Assembly (NCBI GenBank): GCA_018970255.1
Contig: JAGWWS010000014.1
Location: forward strand, 1 to 64,000
Direction of reading: 5' to 3'
DNA length: 64,000 nt
Source: Verrucomicrobiota bacterium
GTDB taxonomy: Bacteria > Verrucomicrobiota > Verrucomicrobiia > Chthoniobacterales > Terrimicrobiaceae
The notes under the pieces were generated by a model. The model had not been told where the DNA came from. It saw only the letters and a list, made by a program, of their open reading frames with translations, and did no database searches. Made by a program: the position numbers and the translations under genes. This document shows, piece by piece, positions 243 through 13,871 of the stretch. Position 1 is the stretch's first letter. Each line of letters starts with the position of its first letter.

Positions 243-1517
243 TTACCGAAGCTGCTGCGCTTCCAGTTGCCCATACCAAGCCCTGTTCACCTGCATGATG
301 GTTCGCTGGAGGTTGACGATGGGTTGGACGCCGGGGAGGCCGGGGGTTGAGCTGAAGAAACCGGAGAAAGTAAGATAATATTGGCTGGATTCGAATCCCG
401 GATATGAACTGAGCGCAGCCCTCAAAGACTCGTAGGGAGGCGCAAACCCGGTCGCCTGCTGATCTGGCGCTATGTAATAAAAACCGGCCGGTTGGGATGG
501 CACCCAGCTGACGAAGGTGAAGCCCCCGCCCGGGAACTGCGCAGAGGCTCTACTCTCCTCGGAGATCACATAATTGGCAGGATTGGAGTAGTCCTCCACA
601 ATGCCCGAATAAGGTCCTGTGTATTGCCATTTAACGAAGACCTTCAGCTGTGATGGATCCGAGGAGGGGTAGGCCCAACTCGCGTAGATTTGGATGTTGT
701 CGGCACTGAGATACCGCCAATCTCCGTAGACCCATGTTCCGAACGGGTAGGCGCTGACCCTGACGCGAAGACCGTTGTCGGTGGCCGGTATCTGCAATAT
801 CCGGCGGACTTCCCCGCTAACGTAGGCAATGGTGGGTGCCACGCTCGCATCGGGAGCGTAGGCTGCATCTCCGACGGTTTGAAAATAGTCATTGATGACC
901 CCCGTCCCGTGCATGTCGGCATCGGAATTATTGGCCAAGCCGTCACCGTCCACATCGCCGTCAAAACCGTTTGTGGAGGCGTCGCCATCGGTATCGACTT
1001 CGCCGGACACCCCATCGGCCAAGCCATCGCCGTCGATGTCTGTTTCGCTGGCCGCGTCGTCGGCACGCGCATCGCCGTCGATATCTGTTTCGGTGGCCGC
1101 ATTGTCCAGCAGACCATCGCCGTCGATATCGGTCTCTTGGCGCTCGCCGTCCAAGCGACCGTCGCCGTCGATATCGGTTTCATTGGCTGCACTGTCGGCG
1201 AGACCATCCCCATCGATATCAAGTTCCGCCACAGCGATGTCGGCGAGGCCATCGGCGTCCATGTCGAGTTCCTGCGAGGAATCGTTGGGGAGGTTGTCGC
1301 CGATGTATCGGCCGCGCAGGGGACCCGAGCGCGCGGTGCCGCCGTCGATGTTGCGGTCGACTCCGTTCAGGATGCCATCGTTGTCCACATCCCGGTCGGA
1401 GATGTTTGGAATGCCGTCCCTATCGAGGTCGGGTGGGTTGGCGGTTTGGGAAAACGCGGTCGTCGAGGCAAGAAAGGCTATGCATCCGACCACGGTCATA
1501 AGTGTAGTATTTTTCAT
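243..1517 (-). CDS. Secreted protein with about a dozen DxDGDG calcium-binding repeats (TSP3-like) and unique C-terminal domain
   Basis: This 424-residue protein starts at ATG 1517 after a GAAAGGAAA Shine-Dalgarno-like site; the frame is open further upstream, but a clear signal peptide (about residues 1-24, ending AFSQ) begins here. Residues about 28-205 are a ladder of Asp-rich units such as TDIDGDGLLDNAA and ELDIDGDGLADSAA, the thrombospondin type 3 calcium-binding pattern, repeated every 12-13 residues and visible in the DNA as a 36-39 base periodicity. Residues about 210-424 form a Trp/Tyr-rich domain I do not recognise. It lies downstream of the sigma-factor fusion gene and upstream of its tandem paralogue. 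The role is probably a surface or extracellular Ca-stabilised protein; no catalytic motif is seen. Confidence 0.85.
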   Translation of the reverse strand: MKNTTLMTVVGCIAFLASTTAFSQTANPPDLDRDGIPNISDRDVDNDGILNGVDRNIDGGTARSGPLRGRYIGDNLPNDSSQELDMDADGLADIAVAELDIDGDGLADSAANETDIDGDGRLDGERQETDIDGDGLLDNAATETDIDGDARADDAASETDIDGDGLADGVSGEVDTDGDASTNGFDGDVDGDGLANNSDADMHGTGVINDYFQTVGDAAYAPDASVAPTIAYVSGEVRRILQIPATDNGLRVRVSAYPFGTWVYGDWRYLSADNIQIYASWAYPSSDPSQLKVFVKWQYTGPYSGIVEDYSNPANYVISEESRASAQFPGGGFTFVSWVPSQPAGFYYIAPDQQATGFAPPYESLRAALSSYPGFESSQYYLTFSGFFSSTPGLPGVQPIVNLQRTIMQVNRAWYGQLEAQQLR

Positions 1518-1583
1518 TTGTATTTCCTTTCGGGGTTGATGGCATTTTTGGATTCCCGTGGTCGGGTCATCGAAAAAGATGCC

Positions 1584-1605
1584 TGACGGAAATCGAATTC
1601 CGTCA
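1584..1605. promoter_or_regulatory. Perfect inverted repeat upstream of the TSP3-repeat gene
   Basis: TGACGGAA and TTCCGTCA form 8-base perfect arms around a 6-base spacer, ending 67 bases before the start codon of the TSP3-like gene, in the gap that follows the sigma-fusion gene. It could be an operator for a dimeric regulator or an RNA hairpin in the leader; the sequence does not decide between them. No T-run follows, so it is not an intrinsic terminator. Confidence 0.45.
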
Positions 1606-1653
1606 CTTGAACAAACGACTGCCGAAGTCTTAAGGACGCTTTTTTTTGGAAAC

Positions 1654-1684
1654 TGCGGGCTCCACCCATCTGTGGCGGCCCGCA
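1654..1684. other. Strong imperfect hairpin between the sigma-fusion gene and the TSP3-repeat gene
   Basis: Outer arms TGCGGGC / GCCCGCA (7 bp) enclose inner arms CCAC / GTGG (4 bp) around a 6-base loop, 15 bases after the stop of the sigma-fusion gene. Read along the minus strand, a T6 run precedes it and an A8 run follows it, the reverse of an intrinsic terminator. It may slow transcription or protect a transcript end; the function is unknown. Confidence 0.4.
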
Positions 1685-1698
1685 AAAAATCCATAGTA

Positions 1699-4218
1699 TC
1701 AGCCCTTCAGCGGGATTGCCTTGCGAATCGAGGCTGCCTTCGCAGGCGCGGCTTGGGCGGCGGTTCCGGCGACAAAGGCTCCGCCCACGGCCGCAGTCAC
1801 ATCGTCCTTGGCAGGTGCGGGCGTGGCAGCCGAAGCGGTTGCCTGGGGCTCAGTGGATACAGGCATGAACGAGTCATCATCCGTGAAAGCAATATCATCG
1901 GAGAAAGAGGGTTCTTCCGATGCTGAGACCGATTGCGCCTCGACCAACTTGGGAAGTTCCACGGAGTCCAGCACTGGCTGGGTGAGTGGTGTGGGACCAG
2001 CCACAGATTCCGCGACAGAGTCCGATCCGCTAATGATGGGCGTGACCGATGAATAGACTCCTGTCGGCGCCTGGATTCCGTTTGTCGCGGAACCTTGGTC
2101 GGTTGAAGCGGCAGCAACGACTTCCGCGGCAACTGGGGCTGCGGTGGCGTTGGTTTCGCGGGAAGCGACAGTTTCTTCGGCGGAGAATTGATAGGTCCCT
2201 TCGCCGAATGTTTGATCGCCAGCGGTAATGGTTCCGCCCTTTTGCACGGTAAAATTGCCTTCCAGAGGCTGGTTGGAGACCAAGGTGCCGCCCGTGACAA
2301 TGGATTGGCCGGTGCCGCCAAGAACCGGCGTGGGCACTTGGTTGAGGGAAAGGTTTTCGGGGTTAAGAAGTCCGACGCCATTGTTCACGGCGATCGTGCC
2401 TCCTCCGGAAAGTTGCACCCCACCGCGCCACCATTCTTGCGGAACGCCACCCGATTTGTCGGTGGTCAGTAGCGTGCCGTAGTCGTAAGACCCTCCGCCA
2501 ACATTCAAAGAACCACCCTCGACCGGGAGAACTTCGGGTGAGTCGAGTTGATACTTCTCATAGGGGGCAATGTAGGTGTCATAAAACCATTGGTCGAAAG
2601 CGGCGGCCTCGCCGGGATTCCCAAACTCGATTCGCGCATACTCGCTGGATGTAAGCACTTGAAGTTGAATTTCACCGGTGTGTGAGGCGACCCAATCGGG
2701 GTTACTTTCAAGGAAGGCTTTGTATTCAGATAAGAGGTCGTTGTTAAATTCCTCCGGATCAAGTGGCTGTGTTTCGAATTCCACACCAGACCCATCATCC
2801 CATCCGGAGCCGGAGTCCTCCGGGTAATTGCAGTAGAGATATGTGTTTTCGAACCAAAGATCGAATGCACGGGCGGCGCCGGGGTCGGCGAGTTCAAGCC
2901 CGGTGTAGTAGCTGGGAGTGACGACTTGGGCGTGCATTTCGCCACCCGAGTTTTCCGTGATCCAATTCGGATTCTCGGCGAGGAAGCTGTCGTATTCGCG
3001 AAGGAGTTGATTGTAAAATTCACCCAGATCGAATTCCCAAGAGTCATCGATAGCGGTGGCATCTTCACCTGTGGCATCGGAGCCTCCATCCGTGGTTTCC
3101 AGCTCATAGGGAGCGATGTAAGACTTGTAATACCAGAAATCGAAAGCGCGGGCGGCGCCGGGATCGGCAAGTTCAAGACCCGTATAAACGCTGGGCGTAA
3201 CAACTTGTGCATGCGTTTCGCCACCCGAGTGTTCAGTGATCCAATCAGGGTTCTCGGCGAGGAAGCTGTCGTATTCGCTGAGGAGTTGGTTGTAGAACTC
3301 GCCCAAGTCGATCTCCCAGGACACATCGACCACGGCGACTTCCCCCTCGCCCTCGAAAATTTCGCTGAGAATTTCGTCGACGGGCTGTTCGGAGAGGTCG
3401 ATTGGCTCTTGATCCTCCGCGGGAAGGTCGATGGTCGGGGGCTCGATGAAGGGCCCGCAAACAACGAGGATCGGCTCTTCAAAACTTTCAACCATGGGAG
3501 GAGGAAGTTCGCATGCCACCGCCTCGGGTTCGGCGTCATGCTGGAAATCATCCACCGCAAGGGCGGCGGCGCCTTCGAGTCCGGGGACGACGCTGGGGAC
3601 GCGTTTGGGTTCGAGGGGCTTGATGAGGCGTTCGGGGGAATCGGAAAGGGTGTTGGGTTTGTTGGTTTGGTTTTTCATGGCTGTGTAGTGGGGACGGAGC
3701 CGCGCGCGGATTTTGTCTAAAGAATATCGCAGGCGGCTGGCGGCGGTGTTCAGGGTGATGGCTTGCTCGGCCGCGATGACGGCGAGGGTTTTGCCTTGGA
3801 GGATTTTTGCTTCGAAGACGGCGCGCTGTTCGGGCGGGAGTTCGCGGACGGCCGCCGAAATCGCGGCGGCGGTGTCAGTGTCGTTTTTTGCGGGCGAGGG
3901 CGATGGGTGGACGGCTTCGGCGGCCTCGGGGGATTCGTGGCGGCGCTGGTCGGCGGCGCGTTTGCGGGCGGCGTCGATGGCGATCCGGCGGGCGGCGACG
4001 ATGAGGAATGCGCGTGGGGATTTCGCCGATTCCACAACAGCCGGGTTTTTCCCGACGCGTAGGAACAATTCCTGCAGTGCGTCGCTGGCGTCCTCGGGGC
4101 AGGCGCAAAACGCCTTCAGCATTCCGAGGACGGCGGTGGAGTGCCCGTTCCAAATGCGCTCGAGCTTGGCGGCATCGGAGCGTGACAGGACCAGGCGGGG
4201 GCGCTCGCGGTTCGGCAT
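1699..4218 (-). CDS. ECF-type sigma factor fused to a long acidic C-terminal region with three 73-residue repeats
   Basis: The protein is 839 residues, against about 180-200 for an ordinary ECF sigma factor. Residues about 15-90 match sigma region 2 (DASDALQELFLRV, then SPRAFLIVAARRIAIDAARKR), and about 115-175 match region 4 with its helix-turn-helix (ELPPEQRAVFEAKILQGKTL, then TAASRLRYSLDKIRARL). The frame continues without a stop through an internal MKNQTNKPN at residue 181. A Pro/Asp/Glu-rich linker follows (about 185-298), then three repeats at about 300-372, 393-465 and 484-556 sharing EFYNQLLSEYDSFLAENPDW and LELADPGAARAFD. After these come a Gly-rich segment (about 565-700) and an Ala/Ser/Pro-rich tail. 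No transmembrane segment or known anti-sigma domain is visible. The gene lies directly upstream of two tandem secreted-repeat genes, which it may control (inference). Two genes that lost an intervening stop is the alternative reading. Confidence 0.85.
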   Translation of the reverse strand: MPNRERPRLVLSRSDAAKLERIWNGHSTAVLGMLKAFCACPEDASDALQELFLRVGKNPAVVESAKSPRAFLIVAARRIAIDAARKRAADQRRHESPEAAEAVHPSPSPAKNDTDTAAAISAAVRELPPEQRAVFEAKILQGKTLAVIAAEQAITLNTAASRLRYSLDKIRARLRPHYTAMKNQTNKPNTLSDSPERLIKPLEPKRVPSVVPGLEGAAALAVDDFQHDAEPEAVACELPPPMVESFEEPILVVCGPFIEPPTIDLPAEDQEPIDLSEQPVDEILSEIFEGEGEVAVVDVSWEIDLGEFYNQLLSEYDSFLAENPDWITEHSGGETHAQVVTPSVYTGLELADPGAARAFDFWYYKSYIAPYELETTDGGSDATGEDATAIDDSWEFDLGEFYNQLLREYDSFLAENPNWITENSGGEMHAQVVTPSYYTGLELADPGAARAFDLWFENTYLYCNYPEDSGSGWDDGSGVEFETQPLDPEEFNNDLLSEYKAFLESNPDWVASHTGEIQLQVLTSSEYARIEFGNPGEAAAFDQWFYDTYIAPYEKYQLDSPEVLPVEGGSLNVGGGSYDYGTLLTTDKSGGVPQEWWRGGVQLSGGGTIAVNNGVGLLNPENLSLNQVPTPVLGGTGQSIVTGGTLVSNQPLEGNFTVQKGGTITAGDQTFGEGTYQFSAEETVASRETNATAAPVAAEVVAAASTDQGSATNGIQAPTGVYSSVTPIISGSDSVAESVAGPTPLTQPVLDSVELPKLVEAQSVSASEEPSFSDDIAFTDDDSFMPVSTEPQATASAATPAPAKDDVTAAVGGAFVAGTAAQAAPAKAASIRKAIPLKG

Positions 4219-4224
4219 GGGGTT

Positions 4225-4950
4225 TTAAATGTCGAAAACCACTTTCGCCGGCACGCCGGAGCGGATCGAAAGGTCGGGGTTCGCGAGGACGAGGCGAACG
4301 CGGAAAAGCCCGCTCCCCGGATCGACCACGGGATCGACCATGCCGATCGCCACGGGGACGCCGGAGAGCCCGAGCGCGGGGATTTCCACGGCCGCAGCGG
4401 TGGATTTTCCGATTTTGCCGATCACGGCGCCATCCAGGAACGCGTCGACATGCAGGGTCTTGAGGTCGACGATATCCACGATCTTGTCCACGCGGCCCAC
4501 GGTTTCGCCGGGTTCTTTGTGGATGCGGAGGACGAAGCCGTCGAACGGCGCAAAAAGCGTTTTGTCCTCGATCACGGCCTGGGTGCGGCGCGCCTCGATG
4601 CGGGCAATGTCGCAATCGATGAGCTTTTCCCGCGCGGCCTCCTCGCTGATGATCGCGTTTGCGCGGAGCTTTTCGCTGTTTGCGAGCAGGAACTCGGCGA
4701 GTTCGAGTTGCTTGGCGGCGCGTTCCTTTTCGAGGGATTCGACGGGCGAGTAAAGGGTCGCCAGAACATCGCCCTTTTTCACGGGCGAGCCCTCGGTGAC
4801 CTTCACCTCGCGGAGGATGGCTTCGACGGGCAGGCTCAGCGAAACCGAACGGGACGGGAGAACGATGGCCTCGGCCTCGAGGGTTTCCGCACGGATGCCA
4901 GCAGCCGGGATGAGGGTTGCGAGGAGGAGGGCGAGGGCGGACTTTGGCAT
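4225..4950 (-). CDS. Short periplasmic adaptor (HlyD/RND membrane-fusion-like), orphan
   Basis: A 241-residue exported protein; the start at ATG 4950 was chosen because a signal peptide (MPKSALALLLATLIPAAG, cleavage near IRA) begins there, although the frame is open upstream. Next come a lipoyl-like half-motif (VKVTEGSPVKKGDVLATLYS), a charged alpha-helical hairpin (about residues 70-120), the second lipoyl half (TLFAPFDGFVLRIHKEPGETV) and a beta-barrel ending in GSGLFRVRLVLANPDLSIRS. This is the layout of membrane-fusion proteins that join an inner-membrane pump to an outer-membrane channel, but shorter than usual (350-400) and without a pump or channel gene nearby. It sits between metH and the sigma-fusion gene, only six bases before the latter's ATG, so those two are probably co-transcribed. 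Confidence 0.8.
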   Translation of the reverse strand: MPKSALALLLATLIPAAGIRAETLEAEAIVLPSRSVSLSLPVEAILREVKVTEGSPVKKGDVLATLYSPVESLEKERAAKQLELAEFLLANSEKLRANAIISEEAAREKLIDCDIARIEARRTQAVIEDKTLFAPFDGFVLRIHKEPGETVGRVDKIVDIVDLKTLHVDAFLDGAVIGKIGKSTAAAVEIPALGLSGVPVAIGMVDPVVDPGSGLFRVRLVLANPDLSIRSGVPAKVVFDI

Positions 4951-5006: not shown

Positions 5007-8000
5007 TCATGCGGCGGTGACGGCGCCGGGCTGGCAGGGGCGGACGAGGGTGCTGTCGGGGTCGTAGTTCAAATATGGCATGAGCCATTTTTCCGCTTCG
5101 GCCACGGACATTCCCTTGCGGGCGGCGTAGTCCTCGATTTGGTCGCGCTCGATTTTTCCGACGGCGAAATACTTTGCCTCGGGGTGGGCGAAATAGAGCC
5201 CGCTCACGCTGCTGCCGGGGAACATGGCGAGGCTTTCGGTGAGGGTGATTCCCGTCGCCGCCTCGGCATCGAGGAGCTTCCAGATCGCGTGTTTCTCGGT
5301 GTGGTCGGGCTGGGCGGGGTAGCCGGGCGCGGGGCGGATGCCGCGGTATTTTTCCCGGATGTAGTCGTCATTCGAAAGGTTTTCGGTTTTTCCGAAGCCC
5401 CAGAGGTCGCGGGCGAACTTGTGCATCCACTCGGCGAACGCCTCGGCAAAGCGGTCGGCGAGGGCTTCGGCCATGATGAGGTTGTAGTCGTCGTGCTGGG
5501 CCTTGAATTTTTTGGCGAGTTCGGGGAGACCGTGGCCGGAGGTGACGGCGAAGGCTCCGACATAGTCCTTCGCGGGTGCGGGGGCGACGAAATCGGCGAG
5601 CGAGTGGTTGAACTGGCCGGCCGGTTTTTTCATCTGCTGGCGCAGGCAGTGCAGGCGGGCGGCGATTTCGGTGCGCGATTCGTCGGTGAAGACCGCGATG
5701 TCCTCGCCGTCGCGGTTGGCGGGGAAGAGGCCGCAGGCCCCGCGGAGCTGGAGCGATTCGTTTTCGACGATTTCGGCGAGGAGCTTTTGGGCGTCGTCGA
5801 AAAGTTTCTTCGCCTCGGTGCCGCAATTCGGGTCGCCGAAAATCGCCGGGTAGCGGCCGCGCAGTTCCCAGGTGTGGAAGAACGGAGACCAGTCGATGAA
5901 CGGGACCAGGTCGCGGAGGGCGATGTTTTTTCCCGATTCGAAAATGGCGACGCCGGTTTTTTCGGGGACGGCGATGCCGTCATGGGAAAGTTTCGGGGCA
6001 TTGGCGATGGCTTCGGCGAGTGGGAGCATCGCTTTCGCGGTTTGGCGGCCGGCGTGCTCGGTGCGGAGTTTTTCGTAGTCGTCGGCGAGCTGCCCGAGGA
6101 AGGCGGGTTTTTGCTCGGGGTTGAGCAGTGCGCTGGCGACATTGACGGAACGCGAGGCGTCGAGGACATGGACAACGCCGCCGCTGTAATGGTGCGCCAT
6201 CTTCACGGCGGTGTGCGCGCGGCTGGTGGTGGCGCCGCCGATGAGGAGCGGGATGGTGAAGCCCTGGCGTTCCATTTCCTTCGCGACATGGATCATTTCG
6301 TCGAGCGAGGGGGTGATGAGCCCGGAGAGGCCGATGATGTCGCAATTTTTCTCCTTCGCGGTGGCGAGGATTTTTTCGCAGGGGACCATCACGCCGATAT
6401 CGATGACCTCGTAGTTGTTGCAGGCGAGGACGACGCCCACGATGTTTTTGCCGATGTCGTGGACATCGCCTTTCACGGTGGCCATGAGGATGCGGCCTTG
6501 CGTGCGGGCATTGGGGTTGGCGGCGCGCTCGGCTTCCATGAGCGGGGTGAGCCAGGCGACGGATTTTTTCATCACGCGCGCGCTTTTGACGACCTGCGGC
6601 AGGAACATTTTCCCGGCGCCGAAGAGGTCGCCCACGGTTTTCATGCCGTCCATGAGCGGGCCTTCAATCACGCTGAGGGGCTTCCCGTATTTGTTCAGAG
6701 CTTCCTCGGTATCGGCTTCGATGTGGTCGGCGATGCCTTTGATGAGCGAGTGGGCGAGGCGTTGCTCGATGGGCTCGTTGCGCCAAGCGAGGTCCTGCGC
6801 GGGCGCGCCGGATCCGGTTTTTTCGGATTTGAAACCTTGGGCGAAGGCGACGAGGCGCTCGGTGGCGTCCGGGCTGCGGTTGAAGAGGACATCCTCGATG
6901 AGCGCGAGGAGGTCTTTCGGGATTTCTTCGTAAATGCCGAGTTGGCCGGCGTTGACGATGCCCATGTCGAGGCCGGCCTTGATGGCGTGGTAGAGGAATG
7001 CGGCGTGGATGGCTTCGCGCACCGGGTTGTTTCCCTGGAACGAAAACGAAATATTGCTGACGCCGCCGCTGACGCGGGCAAATGGGAGGTTTTCCTTGAT
7101 CCAGCGCGTGGCGTCGATGAAGGCCTTCGCGTATTCGTTGTGCTCCTCGATGCCGGTGGCGACGGTGAGGATGTTGGGGTCGAAAATGATGTCCTCGGGC
7201 GGGAAGCCGACTTCGTCGACGAGGATGCGGTAGGCGCGCTGGCAGATTTCGGTTTTGCGCGCGAACGAATCCGCCTGGCCCTGTTCGTCGAACGCCATCA
7301 CGATGGTGGCGGCACCGTAGGCGCGGATGAGCCGGGCTTGTTCTTTGAATTTCTCGGGACCCTCCTTGAGGCTGATCGAGTTGACGACGCACTTGCCCTG
7401 CACGCAGCGCAGGCCGGCCTCGAGGACCTCCCATTTCGAGGAGTCGATCATGATCGGGACCTTCGAGATGTCCGGCTCGGCGGCGACGAGGTTGAGGAAT
7501 TTCGCCATGGCGGCGGCTCCGTCGAGCATGCCGTCGTCCATGTTCACATCGATGATCTGCGCGCCGGCCTCGACCTGCTGGCGGGCGACCGAGAGCGCGC
7601 CGGTGTAGTCCTCGCCAAGGATGAGTTTTTTGAAAATTTTCGAGCCGGCGACATTCGCGCGCTCGCCGATGTTGATGAACGGGATTTCCGGGCGGGCGGT
7701 GAACGGCTCGAGGCCGCTGAGGCGGAGGGTGGTGGTGCGCGCGGGGATTTTTCGCGGCGGGAGGCCGCGGACCGCTTCGCAAATCGCCTCGATGTGCGCG
7801 GGCGTGGTGCCGCAACACCCGCCGATGATGTTGAGCCAACCCTGCTCGGCCCATTCGCGGAGCTGCGGGGCGAGCGACTCGGGGGTCTCGGGGAATCCGG
7901 TGGGCGAAAGCGGGTCGGGCAGGCCGGCGTTCGGGTAGGTGCTGACGAAGAACGGCGAGATGTTCGAGAGTTCCTCGATGTAGGGGCGCATTTCGTTCGG

Positions 8001-8744
8001 CCCGAGCGCGCAGTTCAGCCCGATGGAGAGGAGCGGGAAATGGGAAAGGGAATTCAGGAACGCCTCGACGGTTTGGCCGGTGAGCGTGCGGCCGCTGAGG
8101 TCGGTGATGGTGCCCGAGACCATGACCGGCAGGTTTTTTCCGGTCTTTTCGAAAAACCGGCGGATGGCGAAGAGGGCGGCCTTGGCGTTGAGGGTGTCGA
8201 AAACGGTTTCGACGAGCAGGATGTCCACCCCGCCTGCGACGAGGTTTTCGATTTGTTCGGTGTAGGCGGCGGCCACCTGCTCGAAGGTCACCTCGCGCTT
8301 GCCGGGGTCGTTCACATCGCGGGAGATCGAGAGCGTGCGGTTAAGGGGACCGATGGCGCCGGCGACAAAAACACGCCGTTCCGTGCAGGCATCGGCGGCC
8401 TCGCGTGCGAGCCGGGCGGCGGCGAGGTTGAGCTCGGGGACGATTTCGCCGAGGCCGTAGTCCTCCTGCGAGATGGTCGTGGCGTTGAAGGTGTTCGTTT
8501 CGATGATGTCCGAGCCGGCGGCGATGTATTGGGCGTGGATTTCTCGGATGACCTCCGGCTTGGTGAGCACGAGGAGGTCGTTGTTGCCCTTGAGGTCCTG
8601 GCCGGTCCAATCGGCGAAGCGGCCGCCCCGGTAATCGGCTTCCTGCAATTTGTATTGCTGGACCATGGTGCCCATGGCGCCGTCGAGGAGCAGGATGCGT
8701 TCGGCGAGCAGGTCGCGCAGGGCTTTTTCCGTGGCGGAAATCAT
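5007..8744 (-). CDS. metH: Cobalamin-dependent methionine synthase
   Basis: MetH transfers the methyl group of 5-methyltetrahydrofolate to homocysteine through a cobalamin cofactor in the cytoplasm. All four modules are present in 1245 residues. The homocysteine domain (about 1-330) carries zinc ligands Cys245 in GLNCALG and Cys310-Cys311 in [10 protein letters not shown]. The folate domain spans about 355-610. The cobalamin domain carries the base-off ligand motif DVHDIGKN (His762). The C-terminal activation domain (about 905-1245) includes [12 protein letters not shown]. Length and cysteine positions match the E. coli enzyme closely. The start is ATG 8744. In the 115-base upstream gap, GCGCT and AGCGC arms (8766-8784) could form a weak hairpin, but I see no recognisable SAM, SAH or cobalamin riboswitch. 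Confidence 0.97.
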
Positions 8745-8859: not shown

Positions 8860-11238
8860 CTATTTTTTGACGAAAAATGCTGAGCTGAGTGGCGGGAGTT
8901 CGAATTCGACGTCTCCGCCTTCGATTTCGATTTCGAGGCCGCTGAGGGCGTCGGTGTATTTGCCGTCGGGCAATTCGGGGGCGGTTTCGACTTCGAATTC
9001 GGCGGGGGTTTTGCCCCGGTTCCACGCGCAGAGGACGGCATCGCCGAGGTGGCGCCGGACGAAGGCGTAGCGGTCGCCTTCGGCAATGAGCGCCCGGCGG
9101 CTGCCGTAGCGGAGGGCGGGGTGGGCGTGGCGGACCTTCGCAACTTTCGCGAAATGGGTGCGGACGCTTTTTTGCGCGTCGTTCAATTCGGCCTCGAGCG
9201 GCATCATGCGGCGGTTGTCGGGGTCGCCCGCGCCGGTGAGTCCGACTTCGTCGCCATAGTAGATCATCGGCACGCCATCGATCGCGAGGATGAAGGCGGT
9301 GGCGAGCTTGAGGTATTCGTAGGATTCGGCGTTGTCGACCTGCGGGGGCTTGGCCCAGCCGAGTTCCTCTTCGTCGGGGATGGCGGCATCGGGCATGTCG
9401 CCGTCGGCGTAGGCCATGAAGCGGGATTTGTCGTGGTTGCCGACGAGCGGGGACATGAGCGTTTCCTTGCCGTAAACGGACTCGGATGCGGCGAGGGATT
9501 TTTCCAAATCCTGGAAGCCGTGGCTGCGGCGGCCGAGCACATCCATGATGGTGTCGTAGAGCGGGAAGTCGAACTGGCCGTCGAGCATGTTCGGGCCGAC
9601 GAAGGACATGATGCCCTGGCGGTCCATGAAGGTTTCGCCGACGAAATACATGGAGCCGGGCGGCTTCGATTCGCGGGCCTGGAGGTTCCGCATCGAGGTG
9701 CGGAAGGCGGGCCAGAAGGAGAACTGGATGTGTTTGACGGCGTCGAGGCGGTAGCCGTCGAGGTCGAATCGCTCGACCCAATCCTCGGCGTTTCCGAGCA
9801 GATAGGCGACGGCTTCGGGGTTGTCGAAATCGAAGCCGGGGAGCCATTCCTCGAACCAGGTGGTGAACTGGTGGTCGTTCCAGCGGCGGAGGTTTTTCGT
9901 GCCGTCGGGGAGGTCCACGGTGCCGAACCATTCGCGTTTGTTTTTCCAAAGCGGGTTTTCGACATGGACATGCTTGAGCACGAGGTCGGCGATGATTTTC
10001 GTGCCGTTTTTGTGCGCGGCGCCGACGAGGTTTTTCAAACCCTCCTCGCCACCGAAGCGGGGTTCGACTTCGGTATCCGAGACCGGCCAGTAGCCGTGGT
10101 AGCCGGTGTAGAAGCGGTAGGGCGGGAGGTATTCCTGCCAGGCGCCATCGGGGTTGCGGTTCAGCGGGGCGAGCCAGAGGATATTGATGCCGAGGTCGCG
10201 GAAGTAGCCTTCCTCGATGCGCTGCTGGATGCCGGCGAAGTCGCCGCCGTAGTAGTTCGCCTGCGGCAGCACGCGGCCGTCGTCCACGGGGCGGGTGTTC
10301 GATTTGTCGCCGTCCACGAAGCGGTCGGTGAACGCGTAGTAGAGGATGCCGTCCTGCCACAGGAACTCGCCGGTGGGGCGGACGAGTGCGCGTGCGGCGT
10401 TGGCGAAATTCCCGGCGGAATCGGCGGCGACGAGGCGCACCCAGGATTGGGCGGGGGTTTTCGAGACATCGACGGTGGCGACATCGCCTCCGCGCTCGAA
10501 CGGAATGGCGGCGCTGGAGCCATCCGGCGTTTGGAGCACGGCGGAAATTTGGGTGACGGGCGCGGAGCCGGGGACGATGCGGAAGGCGACGGAACCGTTC
10601 GATACGGATTCCACGAAAACGGTGGGCGCTTGCGGGGCGGGGCGGGCGGGGACATCAAGGAGGGAGTTTTTTCCATCGGCGCTTTTCTGCGCGTTCGAGG
10701 GGTCGAGCACCCATTCGCCGTCGACGACGAATTTGTATTCGTTCGGGCCGGAGGGGAGTTCGAGGTAGGTTTCAAAAACCCCCGGCGAGGTTTCCTTGAG
10801 CGGGTTTGCAGTGGCGCTCCAGCCGTTGAACGAACCTGCAATGGCGACGGTGGATGGTTTTTTTCCATCGGCTTTGTAGCGGAAGTCCGTGCCGTCGCGC
10901 GGGTGGGCGGCGATGGAGAGGACGGCTTGCATGCCGGCGGGACCGCCATTTTCGGGGACGATGCGGAGCGGGATTTCCACGAGGCCGGTGGCGGACGGCG
11001 CGAGGGCGATGGTAAGGACAAGCGATTTCGGGTCCAGCGAGGCGGAGTAGTTTTTCCCTTCCACCGTGAAGTCGAGCTTGTGGCCGGCGGCGGGCTCGTA
11101 GAAGCGGCGCATGTCGAGGGCGAGGGATTCGCCAGCGGTGGCGTGCTGGAGCGGAATCCAACCAATGAACGGCGCGGCCCAGGCAGCCGGGAGAATGAGA
11201 AGGATGGCGAATGCTGCGGCGAGTGTTTGTCTTTTCAT
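8860..11238 (-). CDS. Exported alpha-amylase-family (GH13) glycosidase with N-terminal CBM48-like domain
   Basis: A 792-residue protein with a signal peptide (about 1-21). A beta-rich N-terminal region is followed by a CBM48/glycogen-binding-like segment (about 120-195, VAIAGSFNGWS and GPNEYKFVVDGEW). The GH13 barrel (about 290-700) carries the catalytic set: nucleophile Asp499 in GYRLDAVKH, acid/base Glu535 in YFVGETFMD and Asp603 in VGNHDKSRF. A C-terminal beta domain closes it. It should hydrolyse or rearrange alpha-glucans in the periplasm or outside the cell; the exact substrate cannot be read from the sequence. It lies 30 bases downstream of a second, divergent GH13 gene in the same orientation, so the pair is probably one maltodextrin-degrading operon. 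Confidence 0.92.
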   Translation of the reverse strand: MKRQTLAAAFAILLILPAAWAAPFIGWIPLQHATAGESLALDMRRFYEPAAGHKLDFTVEGKNYSASLDPKSLVLTIALAPSATGLVEIPLRIVPENGGPAGMQAVLSIAAHPRDGTDFRYKADGKKPSTVAIAGSFNGWSATANPLKETSPGVFETYLELPSGPNEYKFVVDGEWVLDPSNAQKSADGKNSLLDVPARPAPQAPTVFVESVSNGSVAFRIVPGSAPVTQISAVLQTPDGSSAAIPFERGGDVATVDVSKTPAQSWVRLVAADSAGNFANAARALVRPTGEFLWQDGILYYAFTDRFVDGDKSNTRPVDDGRVLPQANYYGGDFAGIQQRIEEGYFRDLGINILWLAPLNRNPDGAWQEYLPPYRFYTGYHGYWPVSDTEVEPRFGGEEGLKNLVGAAHKNGTKIIADLVLKHVHVENPLWKNKREWFGTVDLPDGTKNLRRWNDHQFTTWFEEWLPGFDFDNPEAVAYLLGNAEDWVERFDLDGYRLDAVKHIQFSFWPAFRTSMRNLQARESKPPGSMYFVGETFMDRQGIMSFVGPNMLDGQFDFPLYDTIMDVLGRRSHGFQDLEKSLAASESVYGKETLMSPLVGNHDKSRFMAYADGDMPDAAIPDEEELGWAKPPQVDNAESYEYLKLATAFILAIDGVPMIYYGDEVGLTGAGDPDNRRMMPLEAELNDAQKSVRTHFAKVAKVRHAHPALRYGSRRALIAEGDRYAFVRRHLGDAVLCAWNRGKTPAEFEVETAPELPDGKYTDALSGLEIEIEGGDVEFELPPLSSAFFVKK

Positions 11239-11268
11239 GGGGTGGGAAGTGCAGCTGGCGCAGCGGCG

Positions 11269-13755
11269 TCAGGGTTTCGAGACTTCGAGGTAAAGCGGGG
11301 TGAGCGGCGGAATGGTTTCGATTTCGAGGCCGGTCGTTCCAATCGCGGACGTTTCCGCTTCGATGCGGAGGGGGTCTTCGGCGGCGAGGCGGTCGGTGAA
11401 AACCACCTTGTTCCCCGGGAGCGCCTGCAGCGCGGCTGCGGGGAAGCGGATGCGGACATTGTGCATGGCTTGCGTGGGGTTGAGGTTCACGGCGACGAGG
11501 AATGCCTGGCCGGTGGAGGGGTCCACGCGCATGAAGGAATAGAGCCAATGCCCGCTCGCCTTCTCGCCGCCAAGCCGGCCGTAGGCGGGGTTTTCCAGGT
11601 TGGTTTCGCTGAAGGGAATGAACGACCCGCTGCGGAATGCGGGTTCGTCCACGAGGTTCAGGAGGCGCGTGTAGAAGGCGCGGAGGTCTTTTTGTTCCGG
11701 CGAGAGCTTGCCGCCGTCGAATTTCCCGCCATTCACCCATTTGGTGAATTCGGGCATGGACCAGTAGTCGAAGATCGAAGTGCGCGCATCCTCGCCGCCG
11801 AAGCCCTCGGTGCCGTGGGCCGGCTCGCCGACCTCCTGGCCGTGGTAGAGCATCACAGGACCGCGCGAGAGGCCGAAGAGGATGGCGGAAGCAGGGCGGC
11901 CGACATTCGGGCCGAGGTCCGCCCAATGCCCCTTGCCGGCGAGGCGGACTTCGTCGTGGTTTTCCGCGTAGCGGAGGGAGTTGTCAAAGACGAGTTGGCG
12001 CACGGCCTGGCGGTCGATGTCGTTCGCCCAGCGTTCACCATCGTAGATCTCCTTGATCATGTCGTAGGTGGCATCGTCGTAAACGGAGTCGAAGCCAGCC
12101 GCGAGGAGGTCGAACATGATATTGCCGCCGCCGATTTGCGCGATGAGCGGGTCGCCGCCGGGGACTTTCGAGGGATCGGTGTCGTAGGCCTCGGCGGTGA
12201 AAAAGACTTCCGGGTTCCGCTCGCGGGCGCGGGTGATCATCCAATGCCAGAACTCCGGCGGGACCATGTGCGCCATGTCCACGCGGAAGCCATCGACGCC
12301 CATCGCCTGCCAATGAGCGACGATCTCATCCATTTTTTTCCAGGTGTCCGGGATCGCTTTGCCGGGCTGGTCGCCGTGCGGGTATTCGCGGGTTTTCTTC
12401 GTGGGGTCTGTGAAATCGAAGCCGTAGTTGAGCTTCACGGTCTCATACCAATTCCCCTGCGAGGGGCGCCAGGATGCGACATTGTCGCCGGTCACGCGGC
12501 CGTGCTCGAGTTCGGGCTTGAAAAGGCCGTCGCTTTTCGCGCGGGCGACCTTGCTCGTGGGGCTGGTGATGTTGCCCTTTTCGTCAACCGTGGGGAGGCG
12601 CAGGGGCGGGCCGTCTTCGGATTTGGCGAGCCAGAAGAAGTTGTTCTCCGGGCTGAAGAATTTCGAACGGTCGTCGGTGGCGCCGAAAGTGAGGTCCGGG
12701 CGCACGGTGGAGCTGTAGCTGCGCGCGACATGGTTCGGGACGAAGTCGATGAGGACTTTCAGGCCGGCATCGTGGATGCGGGCGACGGCGGCCTTGAATT
12801 CGTCGAGGCGCTTCGAGGGGTCGGTGGCGTAGTCGGGAGAGACATCGAAATAGTCGCGGATCGCGTAGGGGCTTCCCGCAAGACCCTTAAGGAGGTCGGG
12901 GTCGTCGGCGGGCTCGCCGACATCGGTGTAGTCGGTGGAAGTGGCTTGCTGGTGCACGCCGGTGAGCCAGATGTGCGTGGCGCCGAGTTTTTTGATTTCG
13001 GCGATGGCGGTTTCGTTGAGGTCGTTGAATTTCCCGACGCCGTTTTCCTCGAGGAAGCCGTTTGGTTTGCGGGTTTCGTTGGTGTTGCCGAATAGGCGAG
13101 GGAGCATTTGGTAGATGCGGACTTTCGAAAGGTCTTTGTCCGCGCGCGAGTGCATGGCGAAGCGGGCGGCCTCGCCCGAGCCATCGACCGCGAGGTAGCG
13201 GCGGAGCGTGGTCTCGCCGGCGCCCAGCGGCGCGTGGGGGTCGATGCAACCGGTGAAGAGTCCCCAACCGCCATCGGCCGAGATGTCCTTCGTCCAAGCA
13301 AGGAGGTTGAATTTTTGCGCCCCGCCGAGGATGTCTGCGGGAACCGTGAGCGAGGTGGACTCCGCATCGCCCGAGGCGGCGATGCCCGCCGGCGCCGCTT
13401 CGCGCGGCCCCCATTGCGTTTTGTTCCAGCGGCGGATGGTGGTGCTGTAGCCCGTGCCATCCGGGACCGCCGCAATGATGGTGCCCGCCTTGAAGGGAAG
13501 GAAAACCGTCGAGCCCTCGATGCCTTTCTCAAACGGAACAATGATCGAACCGTCCCGCGCTCCGATGGCGATATAGAGGGCTTGGGGTTTTTCGGAATCT
13601 TTTTTGAAGGAAGCAGAAACTTTCAGGCCGCCGTCGGTGGGTCGTTCAATTTTGTAATTCGAGTCACCCGCGCCATCGGACTCGAAAACCCCTGCCGAGG
13701 TGAGGTGGGGAATTGCACAAAAAAGAACTAGCGGAAGAAGAAAGATTTTAGGCAT
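11269..13755 (-). CDS. Exported alpha-amylase-family (GH13) glycosidase with long N-terminal domain
   Basis: An 828-residue protein; the start at ATG 13755 (MPKIFLLPLVLFCAIPHLTSA) opens a clean signal peptide, whereas the longer open frame begins with an Arg-rich stretch. An N-terminal beta domain of about 190 residues precedes the GH13 barrel: DFVPNH (337-342), nucleophile Asp493 in GFRVDMAHM, acid/base Glu522 in FFTAEAYD, and the His-Asp pair at 600-601 in YAENHDEVR. The C-terminal beta domain ends in LYLEVSKP. It is not a duplicate of its downstream GH13 neighbour: domain layout and motifs differ, so complementary activities on alpha-glucans are likely (inference). Confidence 0.92.
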   Translation of the reverse strand: MPKIFLLPLVLFCAIPHLTSAGVFESDGAGDSNYKIERPTDGGLKVSASFKKDSEKPQALYIAIGARDGSIIVPFEKGIEGSTVFLPFKAGTIIAAVPDGTGYSTTIRRWNKTQWGPREAAPAGIAASGDAESTSLTVPADILGGAQKFNLLAWTKDISADGGWGLFTGCIDPHAPLGAGETTLRRYLAVDGSGEAARFAMHSRADKDLSKVRIYQMLPRLFGNTNETRKPNGFLEENGVGKFNDLNETAIAEIKKLGATHIWLTGVHQQATSTDYTDVGEPADDPDLLKGLAGSPYAIRDYFDVSPDYATDPSKRLDEFKAAVARIHDAGLKVLIDFVPNHVARSYSSTVRPDLTFGATDDRSKFFSPENNFFWLAKSEDGPPLRLPTVDEKGNITSPTSKVARAKSDGLFKPELEHGRVTGDNVASWRPSQGNWYETVKLNYGFDFTDPTKKTREYPHGDQPGKAIPDTWKKMDEIVAHWQAMGVDGFRVDMAHMVPPEFWHWMITRARERNPEVFFTAEAYDTDPSKVPGGDPLIAQIGGGNIMFDLLAAGFDSVYDDATYDMIKEIYDGERWANDIDRQAVRQLVFDNSLRYAENHDEVRLAGKGHWADLGPNVGRPASAILFGLSRGPVMLYHGQEVGEPAHGTEGFGGEDARTSIFDYWSMPEFTKWVNGGKFDGGKLSPEQKDLRAFYTRLLNLVDEPAFRSGSFIPFSETNLENPAYGRLGGEKASGHWLYSFMRVDPSTGQAFLVAVNLNPTQAMHNVRIRFPAAALQALPGNKVVFTDRLAAEDPLRIEAETSAIGTTGLEIETIPPLTPLYLEVSKP

Positions 13756-13871
13756 GGAATGGCGCGGTTTCGGGGATTTGCGGAAGCCGTTTTCTTTCCG
13801 CGAAAGGCGGAAAAGGAGCAATTCAATTCGCGTGAGATTTTTCCCAACCGAGGCGATTGGAAAACCTCATG

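Follow-up and report, generated by a model that had tools for sequence, protein, structure and literature searches.

A few lake bacteria carry an ECF sigma factor gene fused in frame to a long acidic tail, with a promoter-like element inside its sigma codons

Introduction

Is a sigma factor gene that continues in frame for about 660 further codons a true fusion, and, if so, what might the added part do? The question is raised by one gene in a 64,000-nt stretch of DNA (the window), which makes up almost all of the 64,416-bp contig C64; the draft genome to which this contig belongs has 2.56 Mb. An initial annotation had described an ECF sigma factor continued by an acidic linker, three repeat copies and a Gly/Ala-rich tail; the operon, a motif just after the sigma part and a promoter-like element inside the sigma codons were absent from that description. 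Here, we find that the sigma factor is joined to the tail in a few lake bacteria and that the junction is long-standing. The architecture is real, rare and conserved, and the frozen promoter-like element in the sigma codons is a more surprising result than the fusion itself.

Results and Discussion

The fusion protein consists of an intact sigma part and a tail with an orphan repeat

1699..4218, minus strand: fusion gene, ECF sigma factor with a 661-residue acidic tail, 839 residues, single open frame
3685..4182, minus strand: ECF sigma regions 2 and 4, residues 13-178 (Pfam and NCBIfam matches, dN/dS 0.13-0.22)

The reading frame cannot begin further upstream, since an in-frame TAA lies 9 nt 5' of the ATG. 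The sigma part (residues ~13-175) is an intact ECF factor in frame with the tail, and the initial annotation was right on both its regions and the continuation of some 660 residues: Pfam matches were obtained for Sigma70_r2 at residues 26-88 (5.6e-8) and for Sigma70_r4_2 at residues 119-164 (8e-7), PF04542 and PF08281 both exceeded their cut-offs in the fusion protein, and TIGR02937 scored 66 bits against a cut-off of 42.9. The N-terminus has regions 2 and 4 and lacks regions 1.1 and 3, which defines it as an ECF member of the sigma-70 family. The tail comprises the following features.

3676..3678, minus strand: internal ATG (Met181), at which a separate tail protein is likely to start; conserved in 8/8 fusions, preceded by the element P2 described below
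3571..3630, minus strand: conserved motif RLIKPLEPKRVPSVVPGLEG, residues 197-216, common to 8/8 fusions
3322..3570, minus strand: acidic, K/R-poor linker, residues 217-299 (composition; predicted disordered)
3103..3321, minus strand: repeat copy 1, residues 300-372 (predicted helix-helix-hairpin-helix, pLDDT 74)
2824..3042, minus strand: repeat copy 2, residues 393-465 (sequence comparison of copies)
2554..2775, minus strand: repeat copy 3, residues 482-555 (sequence comparison of copies)
2119..2523, minus strand: Gly-rich, beta-helix-like stretch, residues 566-700 (composition; no family match)
1702..1800, minus strand: weakly hydrophobic Gly/Ala segment, then basic C-terminal end, residues 807-839 (hydropathy)

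Composition and copy coordinates bear out the described order of linker, three copies and Gly/Ala-rich end. The repeat pattern had also been said to resemble no described domain known to the annotator, and indeed residues 181-839 gave no match in Pfam or NCBIfam, a known domain was not found for the tail in PDB sequences or PDB folds either, and no sorting-signal family matched. The extension domains known from ECF41, ECF42, ECF57 and ECF238 are of the SnoaL, TPR, WD40 or Cys-rich type, and Pfam and NCBIfam revealed none of these in the tail. It has a pI of 4.05, three cysteines and, in the window protein, no clear membrane helix (best 19-residue hydropathy 1.16); the C-terminal layout, weakly hydrophobic and then basic, is the same in the other complete fusions. 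Just 3' of the sigma part, the pattern I-x-x-L-x-x-[RK]-R-V-P-S is common to all eight fusions that we found, and an in-frame Met lies between it and the sigma part in each of them. AlphaFold did not resolve the tail in a model of the whole fusion built from only five sequences (pLDDT mostly <50) and predicted it to be mostly disordered.

The repeat core is conserved over ~66-70 residues, with copies spaced 93 and 89 residues apart. Copies 1 and 2 of the window, which agree at 54 of 68 positions in the protein (79%) and at 80% in the DNA, had looked recently duplicated; this proved wrong, since a dS of 1.54 with a dN of 0.08 indicates an old duplication under strong purifying selection. Among the relatives, G009 and G094 have one copy each and G056 has two, these being the outcome of a recent duplication (dS 0.20, dN 0); no unit is present in G097-G099, and none was recognised in the incomplete G001 protein. 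No other protein carried the unit at E 0.001 in 213 genomes of the order and a 388-genome sample of the phylum; two matches on viral contigs covered only 23 residues and were judged to be chance. A model from six sequences predicts a helix-helix-hairpin-helix fold (pLDDT 74) that matched no PDB structure. As judged from its sequences, the unit is an orphan domain under strong constraint. In the G001 fusion (L035:3666-5219), a short acidic unit, DEEHSDESGEHVDSDPEIAILPT, occurs in several copies before the contig end and replaces the 70-residue unit.

The same fusion is kept in frame in eight genomes

In-frame fusion was found in 8 of 213 genomes of the order, window included, in three families: G000 (the window genome), G009 and G001 in one, G094 and G056 in another, and G097, G098 and G099 in the third. 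The order name, Chthoniobacterales, is taken from named relatives (lake and other Verrucomicrobia MAGs of the Chthoniobacter/Terrimicrobiaceae type). Across the 213 genomes, fused sigmas are separated from unfused ones by a score gap of 1e-92 versus 1e-55, and in a tree computed without long rows, which sat wrongly when included, a branch with support 94/59, recovered in 90% of bootstrap trees, separates the eight fused sigma parts from the rest, suggesting that they form one clade.

Since the genome is metagenome-assembled and the gene of the window sits close to the end of its contig, an artefact, or run-on translation past a lost stop, has to be considered, and the initial annotation itself had named a sequencing error removing a stop near residue 181 as a danger. 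Eight separate genomes contradict this: the linkers between sigma part and tail differ among fusions by multiples of three so that the frame is kept, the repeat unit is strongly constrained, and purifying selection acts in the tail, with dN/dS of 0.17-0.51 in its measurable segments next to 0.13-0.22 in the sigma part. The presence of the fusion in seven further genomes argues that it is neither chance nor error, and we consider an artefact hardly conceivable. The search for homologues recommended by the initial annotation did yield proteins that share both the fusion and the unit.

The fusion belongs to an operon with exporter-type genes in most relatives

4225..4950, minus strand: periplasmic adaptor gene (MFP/HlyD type), first of the operon (HlyD_D23 6e-19)
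1584..1605, minus strand: terminator-like hairpin in the gap between the fusion and the next gene (pattern match only)

The adaptor gene ends 6 nt before the fusion (its ATG is at 4950, its ORF extends to 5088), and an orthologue lies 5' of the fusion in all eight genomes. In six of them (G009, G094, G056, G097, G098, G099) the order is adaptor, fusion, HlyD-like gene and M50 protease/HlyD chimera; the G056 operon is split across two contigs, and the G001 contig ends within the fusion. In the window, the fusion is followed by the terminator-like hairpin (hairpins of this kind in the region number 18, with 12.8 expected), the gene for a calcium-repeat protein and then the end of the contig. The window genome yielded no close orthologue of HlyD or M50, so the case for an exporter link is poorest for the window. 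Exporter genes without the sigma occur with TolC elsewhere in the order.

Such surroundings raise the possibility that the tail is exporter cargo, an acidic protein poor in lysine, located at the surface or secreted, whose gene was fused to that of its controlling sigma, so that the sigma would sense export through the loss of its passenger. The composition typical of exported proteins, the Gly-rich, beta-helix-like stretch, the hydrophobic-then-basic C-terminus and the operon with exporter genes all agree with this, as does the position of some sigma-less exporter copies beside large proteins with LEPRIAPA N-termini. The lack of a sorting-signal family match and of the exporter genes in the window genome speak against it, and the tail motif resembles LEPR N-termini no better than shuffled versions do (39/200 do as well), a result for which we rejected the tail as an LEPR-type exported protein by motif. 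We regard the cargo explanation as unlikely.

Three sigma-less M50/HlyD exporter loci (L158:4266-13000, L161:5814-8671, L148:7251-8906) lie beside large proteins with LEPRIAPA-like N-termini, which are possibly cargo; one such N-terminus has a weak likeness to the LEPR-XLL domain (E 0.077).

A promoter-like element precedes the operon and recurs inside the sigma codons

4967..4993, minus strand: P1, ECF-type promoter-like element TAGACAAA-N-CGTC, 16 nt before the adaptor ATG (4950)
3693..3719, minus strand: P2, the same element in the 3' codons of the sigma part (L-D-K-I-R-A-R-L-R-P), 14 nt before the internal ATG

The element is bipartite, consisting of TAGACAAA and then GCGTC with a spacer of 18 nt from AGAC to CGTC, and a search of the 2.56 Mb window genome with a slightly looser pattern returned only two sites, P1 and P2. 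The same sigma subfamily is common in the class as a separate protein of ~170 residues, and TAGACAAAT-N-GCGTC was found upstream of 37 of 43 such unfused genes (spacer 18 nt in 32, 17 nt in 5), where chance would give 0.9 matches over all spacers. The embedded copy occupies a fixed place: 42 of the 51 subfamily members have it in their [LIV]-D-K-x-R-x-x-L-R-P codons, and it is absent from all 23 ECFs examined outside the subfamily. Within it, the codon before GAC ends in TA in 44/48 genes against a background of 2.9% (log10P -62) and the Arg codon is CGT in 48/49 against 9% (log10P -48), although these P values overstate certainty because the related sequences are not independent; Lys is AAA in 51/51 and GAC is kept in 47/47. 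The skew of synonymous codons (NTA, CGT, AAA) indicates more than conservation of the protein. In 12 of 15 genomes the exact-pattern sites form pairs around the sigma gene, ~500 bp from one another. Nothing pointed to a wider regulon of the motif: off-target matches (9 in the 15 genomes) stayed below those of the reversed-pattern control (25). Both P1 and P2 are present with small variations in G009, G001, G094 and G056; in G097-G099, TA[GA]ACAAA and CGT are kept and the final C of P2 is lost, and P1 was not found upstream of these operons.

CGTC is the common -10 of ECF promoters, group-specific -35 elements such as TGTCACA of ECF41 are known, and ECF genes are usually autoregulated and cotranscribed with that of an anti-sigma (PMC3426412). 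With a promoter-like element 5' of the sigma operon, the locus has, in its sequence, the layout of an autoregulated ECF. The embedded copy might instead be another DNA or RNA signal, for example a repressor site or a translation-coupling element, a reading to which the absence of the AAC core usual in the -35 of ECF promoters lends some weight. The same bipartite element with fixed spacing in non-coding DNA 5' of 37/43 sigma genes argues against a translation signal, however, and both the CGTC half and the precedent of group-specific -35 elements fit a promoter (PMC3426412), so that another kind of signal appears very improbable to us. The element is, by its sequence, probably an ECF promoter. 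We give even weight to belief and doubt in the broader proposal that the sigma gene carries its own target promoter in its last codons, that the protein end and the promoter have co-evolved across the class, and that one clade has turned this arrangement into a nested fusion and free regulator. If true, this would be a case of dual-use DNA, in which the codons ending the sigma are the promoter that it recognises, visible as frozen synonymous codons across the class; an ECF subfamily of Verrucomicrobia that is so far uncharacterised would also gain a specific promoter sequence, with a regulon apparently limited to the sigma locus. We found no report of a frozen promoter element in sigma codons in the literature searched, which was limited in extent.

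The tail may act as a feedback regulator and may also be made on its own

Unfused sigma genes are followed by a gene for a small one-helix membrane protein (FExxL...P.R..P..WR..IL), likely an anti-sigma, and then by one for a membrane protein of ~500 residues; in the representatives scanned, neither had a Pfam match. At L195:3417-5608, L199:6594-8733 and L206:3352-5313, these proteins have ~120-165 and ~500-580 residues, respectively. The tail motif is weakly similar to the N-terminus of the one-helix protein, and 7 of 200 column shuffles do as well; homology of the two is thus only suggestive. Since the tail occupies the place of this anti-sigma-like protein, feedback control of the sigma is our leading guess for its function.

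We postulate an autoregulated ECF sigma gene to which the next gene downstream became joined in frame. Its sigma part would probably recognise TAGACAAA-N-(G)CGTC and transcribe its whole operon from P1; from P2 it would transcribe only the tail, with translation starting at Met181. One locus would in this way yield a sigma-tail fusion and, nested in it, a free tail. To hold the sigma back, the tail would use the I-x-x-L-x-x-K/R-R-V-P-S segment together with its acidic stretch, and the repeats may bind a signal or a partner, plausibly the adjoining HlyD/M50 exporter. The account as a whole, with P1, P2 and the tail as a feedback regulator, has in our view about an even chance of being correct; if true, the fusion would allow nested regulator expression to be studied.

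Separate translation from the internal ATG, seen by the initial annotation as a threat to the fusion, is a live possibility that modifies the fusion and does not refute it: a sigma-type element lies 14 nt before this ATG, which is kept in 8/8 fusions, and for these reasons a free tail is probably synthesised as well. A Shine-Dalgarno sequence is missing from most starts in these operons, so that its absence is no guide to the use of the internal ATG. G098 (L147, sigma 3' end) is the only fusion with a strong RBS-like sequence, AAAGGAG, just before it.

Alternatively, the tail could act solely within the fusion, as a sensor or inhibitor relieved by conformational change or by proteolysis, perhaps by the M50 protease of the operon, P2 being a relic from before the following gene was fused. 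The extensions of ECF41, ECF42 and CorE and the release of IutY by RseP (PMC8999054) are precedents, M50 is encoded in the operon in 6/8 genomes, and P2 is degraded in G097-G099. Nevertheless, P2 is intact in five fusions despite near-saturated synonymous sites (dS ~1.6), which would not be expected of a relic, and an intramembrane protease would find no clear membrane helix to cleave in the tail; we assign this alternative a low probability. As for the built-in sensor or inhibitor first proposed, the fusion underlying it stands, a regulatory role is the best guess, and a free tail is probable as well.

The fusion adds a new form to the ECF sigmas that carry extensions

Extended ECFs likewise have a long in-frame extension after the sigma, and ECF41 controls essentially one transcript at its own locus, a self-limited regulon (PMC3426412). 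The tail described here differs in being 3-5 times longer, acidic and largely disordered, with a repeat unit of its own and none of the known extension domains, and in its exporter operon and the promoter-like element inside the sigma codons. The sigma of IutY (ECF243), made as one protein with its anti-sigma, is freed by Prc and RseP (PMC8999054). Both are fusions of a sigma to the product of a following gene, regulatory in IutY and probably so here, and both are linked with an M50-type protease, which in most relatives is a product of the same operon as the fusion. Unlike IutY, the tail has neither a clear membrane helix nor a recognisable FecR-type domain, and the M50 protein is an HlyD chimera encoded beside the fusion. 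The locus resembles classical autoregulated sigma/anti-sigma operons in the ECF-type promoter-like element 5' of the sigma operon and in the sigma and one-helix protein of its unfused relatives, but has a second copy of the element in the sigma's own codons and, in eight genomes, a downstream gene fused to the sigma.

Neighbouring genes in the window

The gene directly 3' of the fusion (243-1694, minus strand, likely start 1516), at the position of the HlyD gene in relatives, encodes a protein with DxDGDGxxD repeats, calcium-binding and thrombospondin-3-like, with a likely signal peptide; tandem 45-bp units lie at 999-1220. On the other side, before the operon, the stretches 5007-8744 and 8860-13821 appear by eye to encode a protein like methionine synthase (metH), followed by two large alpha-amylase-like secreted proteins; P1 of the adaptor lies just past the metH stop.
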